Shown piece after piece: positions 1,444 to 10,941 of a stretch of 64,000 bases of DNA. The notes beneath the pieces were generated by a model. The model searched no databases and had not been told where the DNA came from. It saw nothing but the letters and a program-made list of their open reading frames with translations. The position numbers and the translations under genes were made by a program. Source of the stretch: Polaromonas sp. (lineage in GTDB: Bacteria > Pseudomonadota > Gammaproteobacteria > Burkholderiales > Burkholderiaceae_C); the NCBI GenBank assembly GCA_030683705.1, contig JAUXPP010000057.1, positions 1 through 64,000 on the forward strand, read 5' to 3'. Numbering within the stretch: the first letter of the stretch is position 1; each line of letters opens with the position of its first letter.

Positions 1444-3027
1444 ATGATCAAAAAATTCATCGACAAGCTGCTGGGCAAGACCACCAAGGCCGAGCCTGCA
1501 AAAACGGCGGCCGGCAAGCGTGTCGAGGTGCCCAAGAGCGAGCACGGCATCGACCCGTCGCTGGTGGACGAACGTGCCGTCAAGGTTGTCAGCACGCTGG
1601 CTGAGGCCGGCTTCGAGGCCTACATCGTCGGCGGTGCGGTGCGCGACCTGCTGGTGGGGCTGCGGACGAAGGACTTCGACGTGGCGACCAACGCCACGCC
1701 CGAGCAGGTCAAGGGCCTGTTACGGCGCGCCTTCATCATCGGCCGGCGCTTTCGCATCGTGCATGTCATTTACGGCCGCGGCCGCGAACATGAAGTGATC
1801 GAGGTTTCGACCTTCCGCGCGCACCTCGACGCCAGCCTGGCCGAGCAGGTCGGCGGCAACGAGCGCACCAGCAAGAGCGAACTGGCCGGCATGAAACACG
1901 CGGTGGACGCCTCCGGCCGGGTGTTGCGCGACAACGTCTGGGGCCCGATGGAAGAAGACGCCGCGCGGCGCGACTTCACCATCAACGCCATGTATTACGA
2001 CCCGGAGACGCAGATCGTCGTCGACTACCACCACGGCATCCGCGACGCCAAGAAAAAAATCATCCGCATGATCGGCGACCCGGCCACGCGTTACCGCGAA
2101 GACCCGGTGCGCATCATCCGCGCCGTGCGTTTTTCGGCCAAGCTCAGCGCGCTGGGCTTCAAGTTCGAGGACAAGACGGCCGCGCCGCTGAAATCCATGA
2201 AGGGCCTGCTGGCCGACGTGCCGCAGTCGCGCCTGTTCGACGAGATGCTCAAGCTGTTGCAGACCGGCCACTCGCTGGCCAGCATCGAGCAACTGAAGTT
2301 CCTGGGCCTGAACACCGGCATCTACCCCTTGCTGGATGTGGTGGTGGATACGTCCGAAGAACCCTTTTTGCAACTGGCGTTGCTCGATACCGACCGCCGT
2401 GTCGGTGAAGGCAAGCCGGTCGCGCCCAGCTTTCTGCTGTCCTGTGTGCTCTGGGCCGATGTGCGCGAAGGCTGGGCCCGGCGCCTGAGCCGCGGCGAGC
2501 ACACCATGCCGGCGCTGCAGGACGCGATCGACGATGCCTTCAACGCCAAAATCGGCGATGTGTCGGGCCGCGGCAAGCTGGGCACCGACATGCGCGAGAT
2601 CTGGACCATGCAGCCGCGCTTCGAGAAACGCACCGGCAGCTCGCCCTATTCGCTGCTGGACCAGCCGCGCTTCCGGGCCGGCTTCGACTTCCTGCGCCTG
2701 CGCGCGCAGACCGGCGAGGTCGAGATGGAACTGGCCGAGTGGTGGGAAAAGTTCAGCACCGCCTACGACGACGAGCGCCACGAGATGATCGAGCAGGCGC
2801 GCCTGGCGCAGGCGCAAAAACCCCAGGCGCCGCGCACCCGCGTCAAGCGCGTGGAGAGCGACGCAGCGCGCGGCGTGGACGGCAGCCAGCTGGCGGCACC
2901 TTTCCCCGAGTTTGGCGAGTCCGGCGAGCCGGCGCCTGCCAAAAAACGCCGGCGCCGCCGCAAGCCGGCCAACCGCGAAGGCGGTGCGCAGCCCGCCAGC
3001 CCGCCGTCCGACAGCGCCGAACACTGA
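1444..3027 (+). CDS. pcnB: Poly(A) polymerase / polynucleotide adenylyltransferase
   Basis: YIVGGAVRDLLVGLRTKDFDVATNATPEQV, Arg/Lys-rich C-terminal tail. Confidence 0.96.
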   Translation: MIKKFIDKLLGKTTKAEPAKTAAGKRVEVPKSEHGIDPSLVDERAVKVVSTLAEAGFEAYIVGGAVRDLLVGLRTKDFDVATNATPEQVKGLLRRAFIIGRRFRIVHVIYGRGREHEVIEVSTFRAHLDASLAEQVGGNERTSKSELAGMKHAVDASGRVLRDNVWGPMEEDAARRDFTINAMYYDPETQIVVDYHHGIRDAKKKIIRMIGDPATRYREDPVRIIRAVRFSAKLSALGFKFEDKTAAPLKSMKGLLADVPQSRLFDEMLKLLQTGHSLASIEQLKFLGLNTGIYPLLDVVVDTSEEPFLQLALLDTDRRVGEGKPVAPSFLLSCVLWADVREGWARRLSRGEHTMPALQDAIDDAFNAKIGDVSGRGKLGTDMREIWTMQPRFEKRTGSSPYSLLDQPRFRAGFDFLRLRAQTGEVEMELAEWWEKFSTAYDDERHEMIEQARLAQAQKPQAPRTRVKRVESDAARGVDGSQLAAPFPEFGESGEPAPAKKRRRRRKPANREGGAQPASPPSDSAEH

Positions 3028-3036
3028 GGCTTCGCC

Positions 3037-3552
3037 ATGCCGGCTGGTGCATCCGGGAAAGAGACCACGCCGCAGGTCACCGCTTATGTGGCGCTGGGCG
3101 CCAACCTCGGTGATGCAGAAGCCACGGTGCGGCAGGCGATGGACGCGCTGGACCGCCTGCCGCTGAGCCGTGTGCTGCGGCGCTCCAGCCTGTACCGCAC
3201 CGCGCCCGTGGCCCGCGATTGCGCCGGCCGGGCGGACGGACCCGACTACATCAATGCCGTGGTGGCCCTGGACACGCGCCTGCCGGCGCTGGACTTGCTG
3301 GACCGCTTGCAGGCGCTGGAGCTGGCGGCGGGGCGTGAGCGGCCTTACCCGGATGCCCCGCGCACCCTGGACCTGGATCTGTTGTTGTACGGCGATGCCC
3401 GGATCGATTCACCGTGCCTGAGCGTGCCGCACCCGCGCATGATGCAGCGCGCCTTTGTGCTGGTGCCGCTGGCGGAGATTGCGCCCGGCCTGGTATCTGA
3501 AGCGCAGTTGCGCGCGGTGGCAAATCAGGCCATCACACGTGTCGATGCCTGA
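3037..3552 (+). CDS. folK: 6-hydroxymethyl-7,8-dihydropterin pyrophosphokinase
   Basis: YVALGANLGD, APRTLDLDLLLYGD, PHPRMMQRAFVLVPLAEIAP. Confidence 0.96.
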   Translation: MPAGASGKETTPQVTAYVALGANLGDAEATVRQAMDALDRLPLSRVLRRSSLYRTAPVARDCAGRADGPDYINAVVALDTRLPALDLLDRLQALELAAGRERPYPDAPRTLDLDLLLYGDARIDSPCLSVPHPRMMQRAFVLVPLAEIAPGLVSEAQLRAVANQAITRVDA

Positions 3553-3563
3553 GCGTTGAAGGC

Positions 3564-4214
3564 CTAGGGCGCGAGGCGCTCGCGCAGCCAGCCGCCGCCG
3601 TCCTGCAGCGTGTAGCGCAGGCGGTCATGCAGCCGGCTTTTGCGTCCCTGCCAGAATTGCCAGTTGTCGGGCTGGAGCCGGTAGCCGCCCCAGTGCGGCG
3701 GGCGTGGCGGCTGCAACAGGAATTTCGCGCCGTATTTCGCGGCATTGGCCACCAGCACACTCCGGCCGGAGATCACCTCGCTCTGCGGGCTGGCCCAGGC
3801 GCCTATGCGTGAGTCCAGCGGACGGCTGTGGAAGTAGGCATCGCTTTCTTCTGCCGAGACCTTTTCCACCACACCTTCGATACGCACCACCCGCTCGAGC
3901 TCGACCCAGTGAAACTGCAGGGCGGCAAAGGCATTGGCGGCCAGTTCGCGGCCCTTGCGGCTGTCGTAGTTGGTGTACCAGACGATGCCGCGCGCGTCGT
4001 AGCCCTTGACCAGCACCACGCGGGTGGAAGGGCGCCCATTGCCGGCCACCGTCGCCAGGGTCATGGCGTTGGGCTCGGGCACCTTGGCCGCAATCGCCTC
4101 CTTGAGCCACTGGTCGAACTGCTGCAGCGGGTCGGCCTGCGAGGCCTCTTCATTGAGTTCGGCGCGTTCGTAACTTTTGCGCAGGTCGGCGATGGATGTA
4201 GTGGGCTCGGACAT
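3564..4214 (-). CDS. pdxH: Pyridoxamine 5'-phosphate oxidase
   Basis: [41 protein letters not shown]-terminus; start chosen at internal Met of longer ORF. Confidence 0.95.
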
Positions 4215-4245
4215 GGGGCCAGTATAGTGAGGCAAGCACCATCCC

Positions 4246-4833
4246 ATGTCCCCATCGTCACCTTCCCCTTCCCCATCCTCCGCCGGCCCGCTGCCGGTGG
4301 TGATCGTGCTGGCGGCCGGCCGTGGCGAGCGCTTTGCCGCCTCCGGCGGCGCAACCCACAAACTCGCGGCGCTGCTGGCCGGCCAGCCGGTGCTCGGGCA
4401 TGTGCTGGCCGCGGTGCGCGCCAGCGGCCTGCCGCACCATGTCGTGCAGGCCGATGCCTCGCGGCCGGGCATGGGCGACTCGATTGCTGCCGGCGTGCGC
4501 GCCACCCCTGGCGCAGCGGGCTGGCTGATCCTGCCGGCCGACCTGCCGCTGGTGCGCGGCGACACGCTGCGCGCCGTAGCCGCGGCGCTGGGGCCGCAGG
4601 CGGTGGCGGTCCCTATGTACCGGGGTGAGCGCGGCCACCCGGTCGGGTTCCCGGCGGCCTGCCGTGATGGCTTGCTGGCTTTGAAGGGAAATCAGGGTGC
4701 AGCGCCCGTCCTGCGTGCGTACCAAGCTATGAATTCAATAGCACTTGTGGAGACTGACGACGTCGGCATCGTCACCGATGTCGACACCGTCGAGGACCTG
4801 GCGCGCGCCGAAGCGCTGCTGGCAGCGCGCTAG
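4246..4833 (+). CDS. MobA/MocA-like nucleotidyltransferase
   Basis: [59 protein letters not shown]; contains an embedded repeat (see findings). Confidence 0.87.
4700..4742 (+). repeat. GCTAT-N7-ATAGC repeat, in-frame in MobA-like gene
   Basis: cagcgcccgtcctgcgtgcgtaccaaGCTATgaattcaATAGC; left flank matches the 34370-34413 copy at 25 of 31 positions. Confidence 0.87.
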
Positions 4834-5348
4834 CTTCTTGAAATGACGGCGCAAGCCAGCCGCGGCCCGGCGTTGCCGGTCGGCTGGGTGCGGTAGTCGT
4901 CGGGGTCGCGGTGCACGATCAGCCCCTTGCCGACGATGTCGGTGATGCCGCTGCCGACGCTGATGCTGGACGACTCGAAGCTGAAACGCGCCACGCCGCC
5001 GGCGTCGGCCTTCAGGCTGGGCAGGTCGCCGGTGTGGTGCATGCCCGTGGCGTGGCTGCCGTGTGGCGCACCCGTGGGATTGAAGTGGCCGCCGGTGCTC
5101 ATGCCGTCGCCGCTGGAGCAGTCGCCTTTTTCGTGGACGTGAAAGCCGTGCTCGGCATTGGGCTTGAGGCCACGCACCTCGCCGCTGACCAGCACCTTGC
5201 CGCCGGCCTGCACAAAGCTGGCGTTGCCGCTGGTGCTGTTGCCGGTGGTGGGCTGCAACTGGGCGCCGGCCCGCGGGCCGCCGGACGGACTGGCGCAGGC
5301 AGCCAGCAGGGCAGTGGCCGCAGCCATCAAAAGCAGTTTGGAAGCCAT
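4830..5348 (-). CDS. sodC: Cu/Zn superoxide dismutase, lipoprotein signal
   Basis: GFHVHEKGDCSSGDGMSTGGHFNPTGAPHG, GNAGPRLACAVI; lipobox LLAAC. Confidence 0.94.
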   Translation of the reverse strand: MASKLLLMAAATALLAACASPSGGPRAGAQLQPTTGNSTSGNASFVQAGGKVLVSGEVRGLKPNAEHGFHVHEKGDCSSGDGMSTGGHFNPTGAPHGSHATGMHHTGDLPSLKADAGGVARFSFESSSISVGSGITDIVGKGLIVHRDPDDYRTQPTGNAGPRLACAVISRS

Positions 5349-5398
5349 GGGAGTCTCCTGGTTGAAAAAGCGGGAAGAAGCTACTCTAAGGCCGCGCC

Positions 5399-6019
5399 TC
5401 AGGCCTCGGAAGTAGGACGGGGAGCCAAGTTGAGCAGCCTGGCCAGGGCGGCGTCCGAAATGCCATGGTGGTGCAGGCTCTCCAGCGTTTGCCGGGCGTA
5501 GTCGTGGGTGCTGCCATACCGTCCGCAAGCCACGGAAAAGATCTCGCGGTAACGCGCTTCGCTGAGTTCGCCGGTGAAATTCGGGCTGCGGCGCGACAGG
5601 GTGAAGGCCAGGGCCTGGACCGGTCCCTTGTCGGTGTTGCAGCGCAAGAGGCGCGGGTCATACACCCCGGTCACCATTTCGCGCAGCCAGAGCCGGGCGA
5701 CCACCTCGGGCACCTCGTGGCGCGGCACGCGGTACACCACGCCGTGGCAACTGCCGCCCGACAGCAGCGCGAACACCAGGCCAGGGCACTCGGGCGTGCC
5801 GCGGTTGATGCGGCTCCACATCTTGAGCGCCCGGTGCCAGCCATGCACCCTGGCGCGCCGCTGTTCGCTGAAGTCGAAATCGGGTCGCCAGATCAGCGAG
5901 GCATAGCCGAATATCCAGAGGTCCTCGCGGCCGCCCCAATGGTGCAGAAACCGCTCCAGCATGGGGGCGGGATCGCGCAGGGTTAACAGGCCGTTTGGCA
6001 GGTGAGTGTCCACACGCAC
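5399..6019 (-). CDS. Gamma-glutamylcyclotransferase (ChaC-like)
   Basis: DLWIFGYASLIWRPDFDFSEQRRARVHGWHRALKMWS, RGTPECPGLVFALLSGG. Confidence 0.9.
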   Translation of the reverse strand: MRVDTHLPNGLLTLRDPAPMLERFLHHWGGREDLWIFGYASLIWRPDFDFSEQRRARVHGWHRALKMWSRINRGTPECPGLVFALLSGGSCHGVVYRVPRHEVPEVVARLWLREMVTGVYDPRLLRCNTDKGPVQALAFTLSRRSPNFTGELSEARYREIFSVACGRYGSTHDYARQTLESLHHHGISDAALARLLNLAPRPTSEA

Positions 6020-6102
6020 ACTTTACAATGCCCCTGAAATTTGCGCATCCCGCAAGTGCGCCACGCCTTCCCCGACCCCTACATCCCCCGGAGATTTTCT
6101 GC

Positions 6103-6666
6103 ATGTTTTCACAATCGGACGATGAGCAGCAGGGCTGGGTACTGGGCCTGTTGGCTGGTCTCATCGCGCTGGTGATGGCCCTGGTGCTGGGGCTGGCCCT
6201 GAGCCGCGCCGCGGCCCCGCGGCCGGTCCTGCCGCCTCCGGCCCCAGCGCCTGCACCGGCTGCTGTGCCTGCGCCGGTGGCTGCCACGCCTGCCGGCCTG
6301 CCGGCTTCGGCAGCGCTGGCGGCCCAGGCGCTCTCCGACGCCGCCAGCATCACGGTCGAATACGGCGTGGTGAAGTTTTACTTTGCGTCCGGCGAGGCCG
6401 AACTGGCGGCCGGCGCTGCCGACGCCTTGGTCGATGTGATCAAGGGTGCGCGCGGCGGCAAAAAGGTGCTGATCTCCGGTTTTCATGATGCCAAAGGCAA
6501 TGCAGCGCGCAATGCCGAACTGGCCAGGCAGCGCGCGCTGGCGGTGCGTGAAGCCCTGATTGCTGCCGGCGTGCCGGACAGCCAGATCCGCCTCGACAAG
6601 CCCGCACAAACCGCAGGCACGGGCAGCGATGCCGAAGCACGCCGGGTGGAGATCGCGCTGCAGTGA
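6103..6666 (+). CDS. OmpA-family C-terminal domain protein, single TM
   Basis: N-terminal TM, Pro/Ala linker, VKFYFASGEAEL.. GKNVLISGFHDAKG.. NAELARQRALAVREALIAAGV. Confidence 0.8.
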   Translation: MFSQSDDEQQGWVLGLLAGLIALVMALVLGLALSRAAAPRPVLPPPAPAPAPAAVPAPVAATPAGLPASAALAAQALSDAASITVEYGVVKFYFASGEAELAAGAADALVDVIKGARGGKKVLISGFHDAKGNAARNAELARQRALAVREALIAAGVPDSQIRLDKPAQTAGTGSDAEARRVEIALQ

Positions 6667-6774
6667 TCCACCGGCGGCTGGTAACCGCCTTGTACCCGTG
6701 GCTGTGCAAGGACTTGGTAACGAAGTAGGATGGGCGACGTAATTAAGTTACCACCGAACACCCAGAAACCTTCC

Positions 6775-8595
6775 ATGACCCTCCATCCCGTCGTCGCCCA
6801 GGTGACCGAAAAAATACGCCAGCGCAGCCGCGCCACCCGCAGCGCCTACCTGCAGCGGCTTGAGACCACGGCGACCCGCGCCATCAGCGTGGACCGCATG
6901 GGTTGCGGCAACATCGCCCACGCGGTGGCCGGCATGCCGCTGGACGACCGCTTCAAGGTCGTCACCGAGCGTGCACCGAACATCGGCATCGTGACTGCGT
7001 ACAACGACATGTTGTCGGCGCACACCCCGCTGCAGCCTTACCCGGACCTGATCAAGTGGGAAGCGCGCCTGCATGGCGCCACCGCGCAGGTGGCCGGCGG
7101 CGTGCCGGCCATGTGTGACGGCGTTACCCAGGGCACGAGCGGCATGGAGCTCAGCCTGTTCAGCCGCGACGTGATCGCCATGGCCACGGCGGTGTCGCTG
7201 AGCCATGACATGTTCGACGCCGCGCTGATGCTGGGTGTCTGCGACAAGATCGTGCCCGGCTTGTTGATAGGCGCGCTGCACTTCGGCCACCTGCCCATGG
7301 TGTTTGTGCCGGCAGGTCCGATGCCGTCGGGCCTGCCGAACAAGGAAAAAGCCCGTGTGCGTGAACTCGCGGCGCAGGGCCTGGTCGGCCGCGACGGCCT
7401 GCTCGATGCCGAGCTCAAGAGTTACCACAGCCCCGGCACCTGCACTTTTTACGGCACCGCCAACAGCAACCAGATGCTGCTCGAAGCCATGGGTCTGCAT
7501 GTGCCCGGCACCGCTTTTGTCAACCCGGGCGATATGCTGCGCGACGAGCTCACGCGCGAGGCCGCGCGCACCGTGCTGGGGATTGTCAAGTCGTCGAAAC
7601 GCTTTTCACCTATCGGCAGGATCGTCGATGAAAAAGCCATCGTCAACGCCATGGTCGCGCTGCTGGCCACCGGCGGCTCGACCAACCACCTGATCCACTG
7701 GGTGGCGGTGGCGCGTTCGGCCGGCATCCTGATCGACTGGAACGATTTTTCCGACCTGTCCGATGTGGTGCCCCTGCTCACGCATGTGTATCCCAACGGC
7801 AGCGCCGACGTGAACCAGTTCCAGGCGGCGGGTGGCACCGGGTTTGTCATTCGCGAACTGCTGGACGCCGGCTTCATGCATGAAGACGTGCTGACGGTGC
7901 GCGCCGGCGGCATCCGCGAATACACCCGCGAGCCCGACATGCGCGACGGCAAGCTGGCCTGGCACGAGATGGGGGCGAGCAAGGACCAGGACATCGTCCG
8001 GCCGGCCAGTGCGCCCTTCAGCGCCAGCGGCGGTCTCAAGTTGCTGCAGGGCCAACTCGGCCGCAGCGTGATCAAGGTCTCGGCGGTGCCGGACGACCGC
8101 CACGTGATCGAGGCACCGGCGCGTGTCTTCGATTCGCAGGAGGGCCTGCACCTGGCCTTCCAGGCTGGCGAGCTGGACCGCGACGTCATCTGCGTGGTGC
8201 GCTGGCAAGGGCCTCAGGCCAACGGCATGCCCGAGTTGCACAAACTCACGCCGCCGCTGGCGGTGTTGCAGGGCAAGGGCTTTCGCGTGGCGCTGGTGAC
8301 CGACGGCCGCATGAGCGGTGCGTCGGGCAAGGTGCCGGCGGCCATCCATGTCTCGCCCGAGGCGGCGGCCGGTGGCCCGCTGGCGAAAGTGCGCGACGGC
8401 GATGTGATCCTGCTCGATGCCATCAAGGGCATACTGGAGATCCAGGTGCCGGCCGCCGAATGGGCCGCGCGCGAGACCGCGCTGATGCCCGAAGCCCTGC
8501 GCGCCGCCAACGGGGTGGGCATGGGGCGTGAGCTGTTTGCGGGCATGCGGCGCCATGCGCTGACCGCTGAAGAAGGAGCTTTGTCGTGGATGTGA
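6775..8595 (+). CDS. edd: Phosphogluconate dehydratase
   Basis: [41 protein letters not shown]; followed directly by eda. Confidence 0.96.
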
Positions 8596-9309: not shown

Positions 9310-9370
9310 AAATTCATGGGCTTGCTGGCAGCCCGGACTGGATCCGGGAACCATGCCCGATGACCGCCGC

Positions 9371-9394
9371 CGTTCGGGTTGAGCTTGTCGAAGC
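9371..9394 (+). repeat. Single copy of CGTTCGGGTTGAGCTTGTCGAAG intergenic repeat
   Basis: Sequence read directly; resembles a common proteobacterial dispersed intergenic repeat (from memory). Confidence 0.4.
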
Positions 9395-9432
9395 CGTTTT
9401 CTCCTTCAAGCCTTTGAGTTCGTGAATGCCTG

Positions 9433-10320
9433 CTGGCCGGGGGTTGCCCGGCGGCAACTCACTTTTCTTTGTCTCGCCAAAGAAAAGTAAGCAAAAGAAA
9501 GGCGACCCTGCTGTCTGCGTCCCCTCTCCGCTGGCGCTGCGAGGGGAAACCTGCGGTGCTCGGTCCAGCCGGGGTCGAGCTCGAACTCGCCTTCGGCTCA
9601 GACAATCGCTCGCCCTGATCCGTCCGGCCCAGCGCTCCTCGGCGCATACAGAAGGGTGGGGGACAACCAATGCGGGGACAAAAGTCCGGAGCAAGAGAAG
9701 CGCGCAGCGCTTCTCTTGCGGGAATCCCAAGAGGCCGTCATGTGTGCACGCGAGCGCAGCGCACGCGGCCAGGGCGGGGGGTTGGGAGTGGGGAGTTCAG
9801 CCCTGCTGTCAGTCGCAAACTCGAGTGCTGTAGCTTGCCAACAAGCCGGGGGTTGCCCGGCGGCAAGTAACTTTCTTTTGCTTCGCCAAAAGAAAGTCAC
9901 CAAAGAAAAGGCGACCCTGCTGTCTGCGTCCCTCCTTCGCTGGCGCTGCGGAGGGCAACCTGCGGTGCTCGGTCCAGTCGGGGTCGAGCTCGACTCGCTT
10001 CGCTCAAAATCGCTCGCCCTGATCCGTCTGGACCTCCGCTCCTCGGCGCATACAGAAGGGGTGGGGGAGAAACCAATGCGGGACAAAGGGAACAAAAGTC
10101 CGGAGTGCAGGAAGCGCGCAGAGCTTCCTGCACGGGAATCTCAACAGACCGTCATGTTTGCACGCGAGCGCAGCACACGCGGCCACATGAAGTTCCCCTC
10201 CATCGCCCAGCGGGGCGAGGGAGGGGCTAGGGGAGGGAGTGGAGAGTTCGGTCCTGCTGTCTATTGCATACCCGGGTGCTGTAGCTTGCCTGCAAGCCGG
10301 GGCCTGCCCCGTCGGGTGAC
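9433..10320 (+). repeat. Tandem structured repeat: two near-complete units (~9433-9840, ~9841-10292) plus a truncated third start
   Basis: Shared blocks gccgggggttgcccggcggcaa, ggcgaccctgctgtctgcgtcc, cgctggcgctgc, acctgcggtgctcggtcca, tcctcggcgcatacagaagg, gtgctgtagcttgcc; hairpins with compensatory changes. Confidence 0.93.
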
Positions 10321-10342: not shown

Positions 10343-10756
10343 TCACCGCAGGCCCGCACCACCCACATCACCCTTGCGCTCAATCAATTCGATCTTGTAC
10401 CCATCCGGATCAGTCACAAACGCAATCACGGTGGTCCCGCCCTTGACCGGGCCGGCTTCACGCGTCACGTTGCCGCCGGCGGCCTTGATCTTTTCACAGG
10501 CCGCATAGGCATCGGGCACGCCCAGCGCGATGTGGCCATACGCCGTACCCATCTCATAACTCTCGGTGCCCCAGTTCCAGGTCAGTTCGATCTCGGCCTG
10601 GCCCGGGTTGCCGCCGTCGTAGCCGACAAAGGCCAGGCTGTATTTGTACTCGGGATTCTCCGAGGTGCGCAGCAGGGTCATGCCCAGCACCTGGGTGTAG
10701 AAGTCGATGGAGCGTTGCAGGTTGCCAACGCGCAGCATGGTGTGCAGCAGTCTCAT
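10343..10756 (-). CDS. gloA: Lactoylglutathione lyase
   Basis: [60 protein letters not shown]. Confidence 0.96.
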
Positions 10757-10941
10757 GGGGTTCACTTTCTCGACGGAAGGAGCATCTGTGTGTTCATGAT
10801 TGTGCTGCAATTTCCAACACCTGTTGCTTTGTACTGACATGGCGGGCAAGCGACACTTTTGCTGTTTTTGCGGTCGCGATGTCCGGTGCGCAGCGGTTCG
10901 GCCTGCATAATCGACGGCAATAAAAACTGTACGCGTTCTTC

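Follow-up and report, generated by a model that had tools for sequence, protein, structure and literature searches.

A dispersed structured repeat of Polaromonas with a putative triple-helix pseudoknot in its half-unit

The tandem repeat at the eda-gloA locus

The window analysed here is a stretch of 64,000 nt from a Polaromonas sp. contig (JAUXPP010000057.1, assembly GCA_030683705.1). At its eda-gloA locus it carries two tandem copies of a non-coding repeat, which agree in register at 81-90% identity with a spacing of 404-451 nt, and whose minus strand lies downstream of, and co-directional with, a glyoxalase-type gene (10343-10849). Repeat finding, blast searches of the own genome and alignment delimited unit 1 (9427-9835), composed of a half-unit, hairpin C and a right-hand module, and unit 2 (9836-10259); for both, the minus strand is taken as the functional strand. 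A sequence-only reading of this DNA had added a truncated third unit. Repeat finding did locate a spacer and a terminal-hairpin remnant near 10260-10318 (minus strand), and nothing more of the unit.

The same reading had described three hairpins, and their positions proved exact. The arms of hairpin A lie at 9461-9470/9479-9488 in unit 1 and 9870-9879/9888-9897 in unit 2. Those of hairpin B (9521-9546 and 9930-9955, minus strand) lie at 9521-9526/9541-9546 and 9930-9935/9950-9955, and those of hairpin C (9691-9719 and 10105-10133, no strand assigned) at 9691-9703/9707-9719 and 10105-10115/10123-10133. Compensatory variation between the two tandem copies was confirmed. Among the own-genome copies, by which B and C were annotated, each of the three hairpins exists in several alternative paired versions: hairpin B varies in a compensatory way there as well, and hairpin C has at least six different arm sequences, with pairing almost always perfect. 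The structure containing hairpin A extends beyond the hairpins, the unit continuing as a multi-helix domain. Missing from the earlier description were the purine tract 3' of hairpin A (9493-9500 and 9902-9909) and the five bases that follow it.

The right-hand modules (9733-9800 in unit 1, 10147-10259 in unit 2, no strand assigned) were defined by repeat finding and by comparison of the eda-gloA locus among relatives. At this locus the element is present in G025 and G448, G032 and G458 have only the right-hand module with no pseudoknot half-unit, and the element is missing from the gap in ten further relatives (50-172 bp) and in G023 (282 bp). The presence of the element thus varies within the genus, whether by gain or by loss.

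The open reading frames across the element matched no Pfam family, as expected from the earlier statement that no protein explains the repeat, and a protein-coding reading was rejected. In the window, Rfam 15 gave no family above the gathering threshold, and a relaxed threshold returned only sub-threshold matches at chance level. A search of phage records for the element found nothing. Other small repeats were noticed nearby. A second dispersed palindrome, CCGTTCGGGTTGAGCTTGTCGAAGCC, lies at 9365-9400 of the window; at about 1850-2330 of locus L300 a GIY-YIG gene stands between inverted copies of a related palindrome, TTCGTCCTGAGCCTGTCGAAGGA, which suggests that palindromes of this kind are a GIY-YIG-associated repeat. 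Directly outside the element, upstream of many own-genome copies (e.g. L009, L011, L016 and L017), a hairpin, GTCATCCCGGACTTGATCCGGGATCC, recurs, and a small dispersed hairpin, GCTATTGAATTTATAGC, with its variants, occupies many Polaromonas intergenic gaps whether or not the element is present (eda-gloA, L151-L161).

The pseudoknot core and covariation of a third strand

On its 3' side, hairpin A is followed by a second purine tract (R2), which mirrors the right arm (R1), and then by GGCGA. The loop of hairpin A ends in TCGCC, which is complementary to GGCGA, and an H-type pseudoknot can thus be drawn. The elements follow one another along the minus strand as S1a, Y2, Y1, S1b, 3 nt and R, where loop 1 is Y2 (UUUUCUUU and variants) and runs parallel to R, the purine strand of stem 2. 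Such an arrangement is the geometry of the major-groove U·A-U / C+·G-C triple helix in telomerase-type pseudoknots. Chance would give 0.02 occurrences of the core pattern in the window, where two are found. Covariation tests and covariance-model matches place the putative triple-helix pseudoknot cores on the minus strand at 9458-9505 in unit 1 (S1, 9501-9505/9474-9478; third strand Y2, 9493-9500; S2, 9479-9491/9458-9470, with the triplex part at 9479-9486/9463-9470) and at 9867-9914 in unit 2 (S1, 9910-9914/9883-9887; Y2, 9902-9909; S2, 9888-9900/9867-9879).

Covariation was tested on 84 distinct ungapped 48-nt cores. S1 and S2 together formed 98.2% standard pairs, with 167 double changes against a shuffle mean of 48.8, where the shuffles ignore phylogeny and the counts, here and below, are therefore not probabilities. 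The earlier claim that structure rather than sequence is selected is borne out by these numbers. The two helices cross and both covary (S1 98.3% and S2 98.2% paired), as in an H-type pseudoknot, and every slid register failed (46-60%). For the third strand, Y2 set parallel to R was 99.1% consistent over four variable columns, with 85 double changes (shuffle mean 29). An antiparallel Watson-Crick pairing of Y2 with R was rejected, being 84.5% consistent with no double change. At the sequence level, loop 1 is thus parallel to the S2 purine strand and follows the U·A-U/C·G-C code.

A column scan of 81 Polaromonas half-units by an APC-corrected G-test placed the triple columns 185/200/215 among the strongest signals, reading U,U,A in 59-60 and C,C,G in 21 half-units. 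The top signals also included the terminal hairpin and the closing helix P1. The terminal hairpin (9436-9458 in unit 1; GTTGCC/GGCAAC, overlapping an alternative GCCGGG/CCCGGC) is the last element of the minus-strand fold and is supported by the covarying column pair 226/237 (UA:57 CG:16 AU:7) within helix 225-229/234-238; its counterpart in unit 2, by covariation and with coordinates checked, lies at 9845-9867 (minus strand). On the same strand, the first arm of P1 in unit 1 (9506-9519) was assigned from the covarying helix 42-45/163-166 of the half-unit alignment and by analogy with the minimum free energy (MFE) fold of unit 2, and its other arm (9643-9656, by covariation) is the inner end of the half-unit. 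In unit 2, covariation and the MFE fold place P1 at 9915-9928 and 10047-10061. Outside the core, the half-unit of about 220 nt thus contains the closing helix, hairpin B and a long rod, P2, whose variable arms surround conserved internal loops (approximately 9550-9645 by alignment and covariation, and approximately 9959-10050 by the MFE fold, minus strand).

R2 mirrored R1 in 75 of the 84 distinct cores, against a permutation mean of 21 and a maximum of 34. When R1 and R2 were left unconstrained in pattern searches of 61 genomes, the true matches were mirror pairs with new variants, and nearly all of 87 contexts obeyed the mirror rule. A scan of GTDB genomes with three purine positions free per arm gave 124 of 128 contexts with R2 as the mirror of R1 and none with R2 as a direct copy. 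Other families of the class keep the rule with different loop and downstream helices.

The mirror relation is decisive for an origin that the sequence-only reading had raised, inversion or gene conversion of arms. Gene conversion and arm inversion might shuffle variants between copies with no selection on structure, which would fit the limited set of arm variants common to the copies; because the copies share this set, recombination between them probably occurs. However, duplication yields direct symmetry and inversion reverse-complement symmetry, neither yields a mirror, and the rule is kept in 27 family-level groups with differing S1 and stem sequences. We find shuffling without structural selection scarcely credible, and the mirror symmetry, which inversion or duplication does not produce, is best read as the outcome of selection on a folded single strand. 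Conservation of the purine mirror might instead serve H-DNA, the intramolecular triplex that supercoiled duplex DNA can form; R1 and R2, 6 nt apart, do make up a homopurine mirror repeat. Yet the left arm and the S1 helix, dispensable for H-DNA, both covary strongly, and the pairing is asymmetric between the strands; we consider this explanation very improbable.

This asymmetry identifies the folding strand. S2 contains 53 G·U pairs on the minus strand against one A·C, and since the G·U pairs would be mismatches on the plus strand, the minus strand is taken to fold. RNAalifold gave -38.5 for the minus strand and -21.2 for the plus strand, and the single-strand MFE z-score was about -2.5 for both window half-units.

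In every Y2 variant found (TTTTCTTT, TTTCTTTT, TTCTTTTT, TTCTCTTT and CTTTCTTT) the cytosines are isolated, which would fit C+·G-C triples, in a sample that the searches themselves biased towards triplex-compatible stems by requiring a mostly purine arm. Counting against a triplex, a single nucleotide joins Y2 to the stem, yet the stem extends five pairs further; a crossing of the deep groove makes so short a link plausible. From the sequences compared, the folding constraint on the repeat appears well supported, and both the covariation of three strands and their polarity appear directly supported. We infer from them a physical triple helix in three dimensions.

Dispersal, paired half-units and genomic setting

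The covariance-model search proposed in the sequence-only reading returned 92 core modules in the own 4.1 Mb Polaromonas genome, where blast gave 46 matches to the unit, the majority spanning about 9845-10248 of the window. Many copies stand at contig ends (e.g. C15, C44, C82 and C159), so the assembly breaks in the repeat and may understate the number of copies. Across Polaromonas genomes the count of pattern matches is patchy, from 0 to 74. The earlier remark that such repeats seem familiar from Comamonadaceae was right as to the family and too narrow: with a covariance model that pairs stem S2 only, 90 of 388 sampled Gammaproteobacteria genomes, representing 74 of 291 genera, had matches at E<=0.001. 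Outside Polaromonas, 42 of the 42 full-length cores checked satisfied all eight third-strand positions, among matches ranked by a model that was trained on such cores and rewards column consensus, not covariation. They span 27 family-level groups, including Pasteurellaceae, Aeromonas and Pseudomonas, and six groups hold two coexisting triple variants, each in register. S1 takes ten fully paired sequences in these cores (CGGCC/GGCCG, TGCCC/GGGCA, TGTCC/GGACA, TATCC/GGATA, CCTGC/GCAGG and others); the right-end core of L295 has no S1 in the fixed register. Text searches of the literature for the core sequences and related repeats, with thin coverage of subscription papers, found no description. 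The family has no Rfam entry, and we provisionally regard its structure as undescribed.

In most genomes examined, half-units come in back-to-back pairs whose 3' ends point outward, usually at a distance of 0.35-0.6 kb, in the manner of the inverted terminal units of MITEs; the window copy itself is head-to-tail. The named set holds roughly forty short pairs and five of more than 0.9 kb (counted by eye), and about one pair in eight brackets cargo. In L183, L215, L260, L307, L326 and L359, both half-units are complete as far as the closing helix, at whose inner end the unique gene-bearing sequence starts; in L324 and L236 one half-unit is degenerate or masked. The cargo includes a Shedu SduA gene (PADLOC E=2.5e-88) with a GIY-YIG gene (L359/L300), a bSEFIR/TIR protein (1e-47; L236), an MntA-like nucleotidyltransferase under the curated cut-off (L260) and unknown proteins of 237-261 aa; in so small a sample, defence genes are noted as present, not as enriched. 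The gene at L358 was excluded as cargo, two ordinary elements merely flanking it. That pairs sometimes bracket genes, including anti-phage defence genes, appears directly supported by these loci.

The pair centres contained no transposase apart from nested IS110 and IS30 copies, carried by L236 and L225. In L236, two identical inverted IS110-family copies lie within the pair (2895-6791), at least one of which interrupts the rod of a half-unit. Target-site duplications were sought at the flanks and none was found; the flanks are too diverged to define insertion junctions. Neither the own genome nor the other high-copy genomes (G004, G025, G031 and G032) contain TnpB; an IS605 omega-RNA reading was rejected for its absence from the own genome. 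Elsewhere in the genus, G003 and G023 have 15-16 TnpB domain matches and most other genomes none. A gene for a Y1/RAYT-type transposase of about 240 aa (G000:C1:19021-19302 and equivalents) occurs in every Polaromonas genome tested, with one or two Y1_Tnp genes per genome in all 16, independent of copy number, and a RAYT linkage is not favoured.

The ends might nevertheless act as single-stranded DNA for a Y1 transposase (IS200/IS605 or RAYT-like), the triplex being a DNA structure. The element recalls REPINs in its strand polarity, its structured ends and its inverted doublets; DNA, too, can adopt T·A-T and C+·G-C triplexes, and the gene is there in 16 of 16 genomes. However, copy number does not track it (G013 and G028 have a Y1_Tnp gene and zero pattern matches), in G025 and G004 it stands near none of the copies listed, and the half-units are several times longer than REPs. 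We rate this possibility as quite unlikely.

Convergent gaps made up 29 of 81 loci (36%) against a background of 48/315 (15%), and divergent gaps 7 of 81 (9%) against 72/315 (23%); in tandem gene contexts the folding strand was sense in 11 and antisense in 19, all figures being approximate with gene calls from a simple codon model. In the own genome, 13 of 21 scorable loci were convergent. The repeat could therefore serve its host, the fold, when transcribed by read-through from an adjacent gene, protecting mRNA 3' ends from 3'-5' exonucleases or separating convergent units, and a role at mRNA 3' ends has been proposed for BIMEs. The convergent enrichment, the position of the window copy behind the glyoxalase-type gene and the 3'-side location of both pseudoknot and terminal hairpin all speak for it, and protection of a 3' end by a triplex has a precedent in MALAT1 in animals (PMC11411715). 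Against it, the lack of a sense preference in tandem contexts is unexpected for a sense 3'-UTR element, which led us to reject that role as the sole function, and the patchy distribution and cargo bracketing require mobility anyway. A host-serving element of this type seems to us unlikely, if somewhat less so than single-stranded DNA ends.

Interpretation and comparison with known systems

By a modest margin over even chances, we favour the view of the repeat as a dispersed mobile element, non-autonomous and composed of a structured half-unit of about 220 nt, one strand of which is selected to fold. The minus strand would fold as RNA, or possibly as single-stranded DNA, into a P1-closed domain with the long rod and hairpin B, followed by the H-type pseudoknot and, at the 3' side, the terminal hairpin. 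Loop 1 would lie alongside the S2 purine strand in a run of some eight triples, U·A-U with isolated C+·G-C. Half-units normally stand in back-to-back pairs, 3' ends outward, round a short spacer or cargo genes, the head-to-tail tandem of the window being another arrangement. The folded ends would be the recognised feature, and putative machinery acting in trans would spread the element. We infer mobility, an enzyme behind it and transcription. More tentatively, the pairs may form a widespread class of bacterial cargo cassettes ending in self-folding RNAs, triple-helix pseudoknots that are recognised in trans as RNA, and may spread defence genes (Shedu, bSEFIR and MNT-type) among Gammaproteobacteria; we hold this to be possible and rather unlikely.

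To our knowledge, few RNA triple helices occur in nature, and those known are mostly eukaryotic or of riboswitch size. In this repeat a triple helix apparently recurs in very many copies, and the three-strand covariation lets the Hoogsteen code be read from sequence. The family would offer a natural mutational series for triplex stability and a way to test how long structured intergenic repeats spread; its pairs would offer a possible route for the movement of defence genes.

Telomerase RNA, as it is established, resembles the predicted core in its H-type pseudoknot, in consecutive U·A-U triples and in the pyrimidines of loop 1, which run parallel to the stem 2 purine strand; the element differs in being a bacterial intergenic repeat, with isolated C·G-C triples and no association with a reverse transcriptase found. 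ENEs occur in eukaryotic transposable elements too. Like the predicted element, MALAT1/ENE places a U-rich tract in a triple helix at the 3' end of an RNA (PMC11411715), but it is eukaryotic, has a topology other than the pseudoknot and uses an A-rich 3' tail. The guanidine-III riboswitch, likewise bacterial and an H-type pseudoknot, has a major-groove triple helix in its P2 (PMC5696562), of the kind predicted here; unlike the element, which matched no Rfam family, it is a ligand-binding cis-regulator of mRNA with a short irregular triplex and without dispersed copies. The Beta-proteobacterial repeat element (BRE) of Bordetella, often a head-to-tail VNTR, is also a multi-copy intergenic repeat in Polaromonas, Acidovorax and Rhodoferax (PMC3110155); it is set apart by description only (75-91 bp, 69% GC) and may equal part of the element. 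Finally, whereas REPs are short palindromes of 20-40 nt, the half-unit of about 220 nt is a multi-helix domain with a pseudoknot, can bracket cargo and showed no RAYT linkage; with REP, BIME and REPIN sequences it shares dispersed intergenic palindromic units, inverted doublets and a place near gene 3' ends (PMC2817692).
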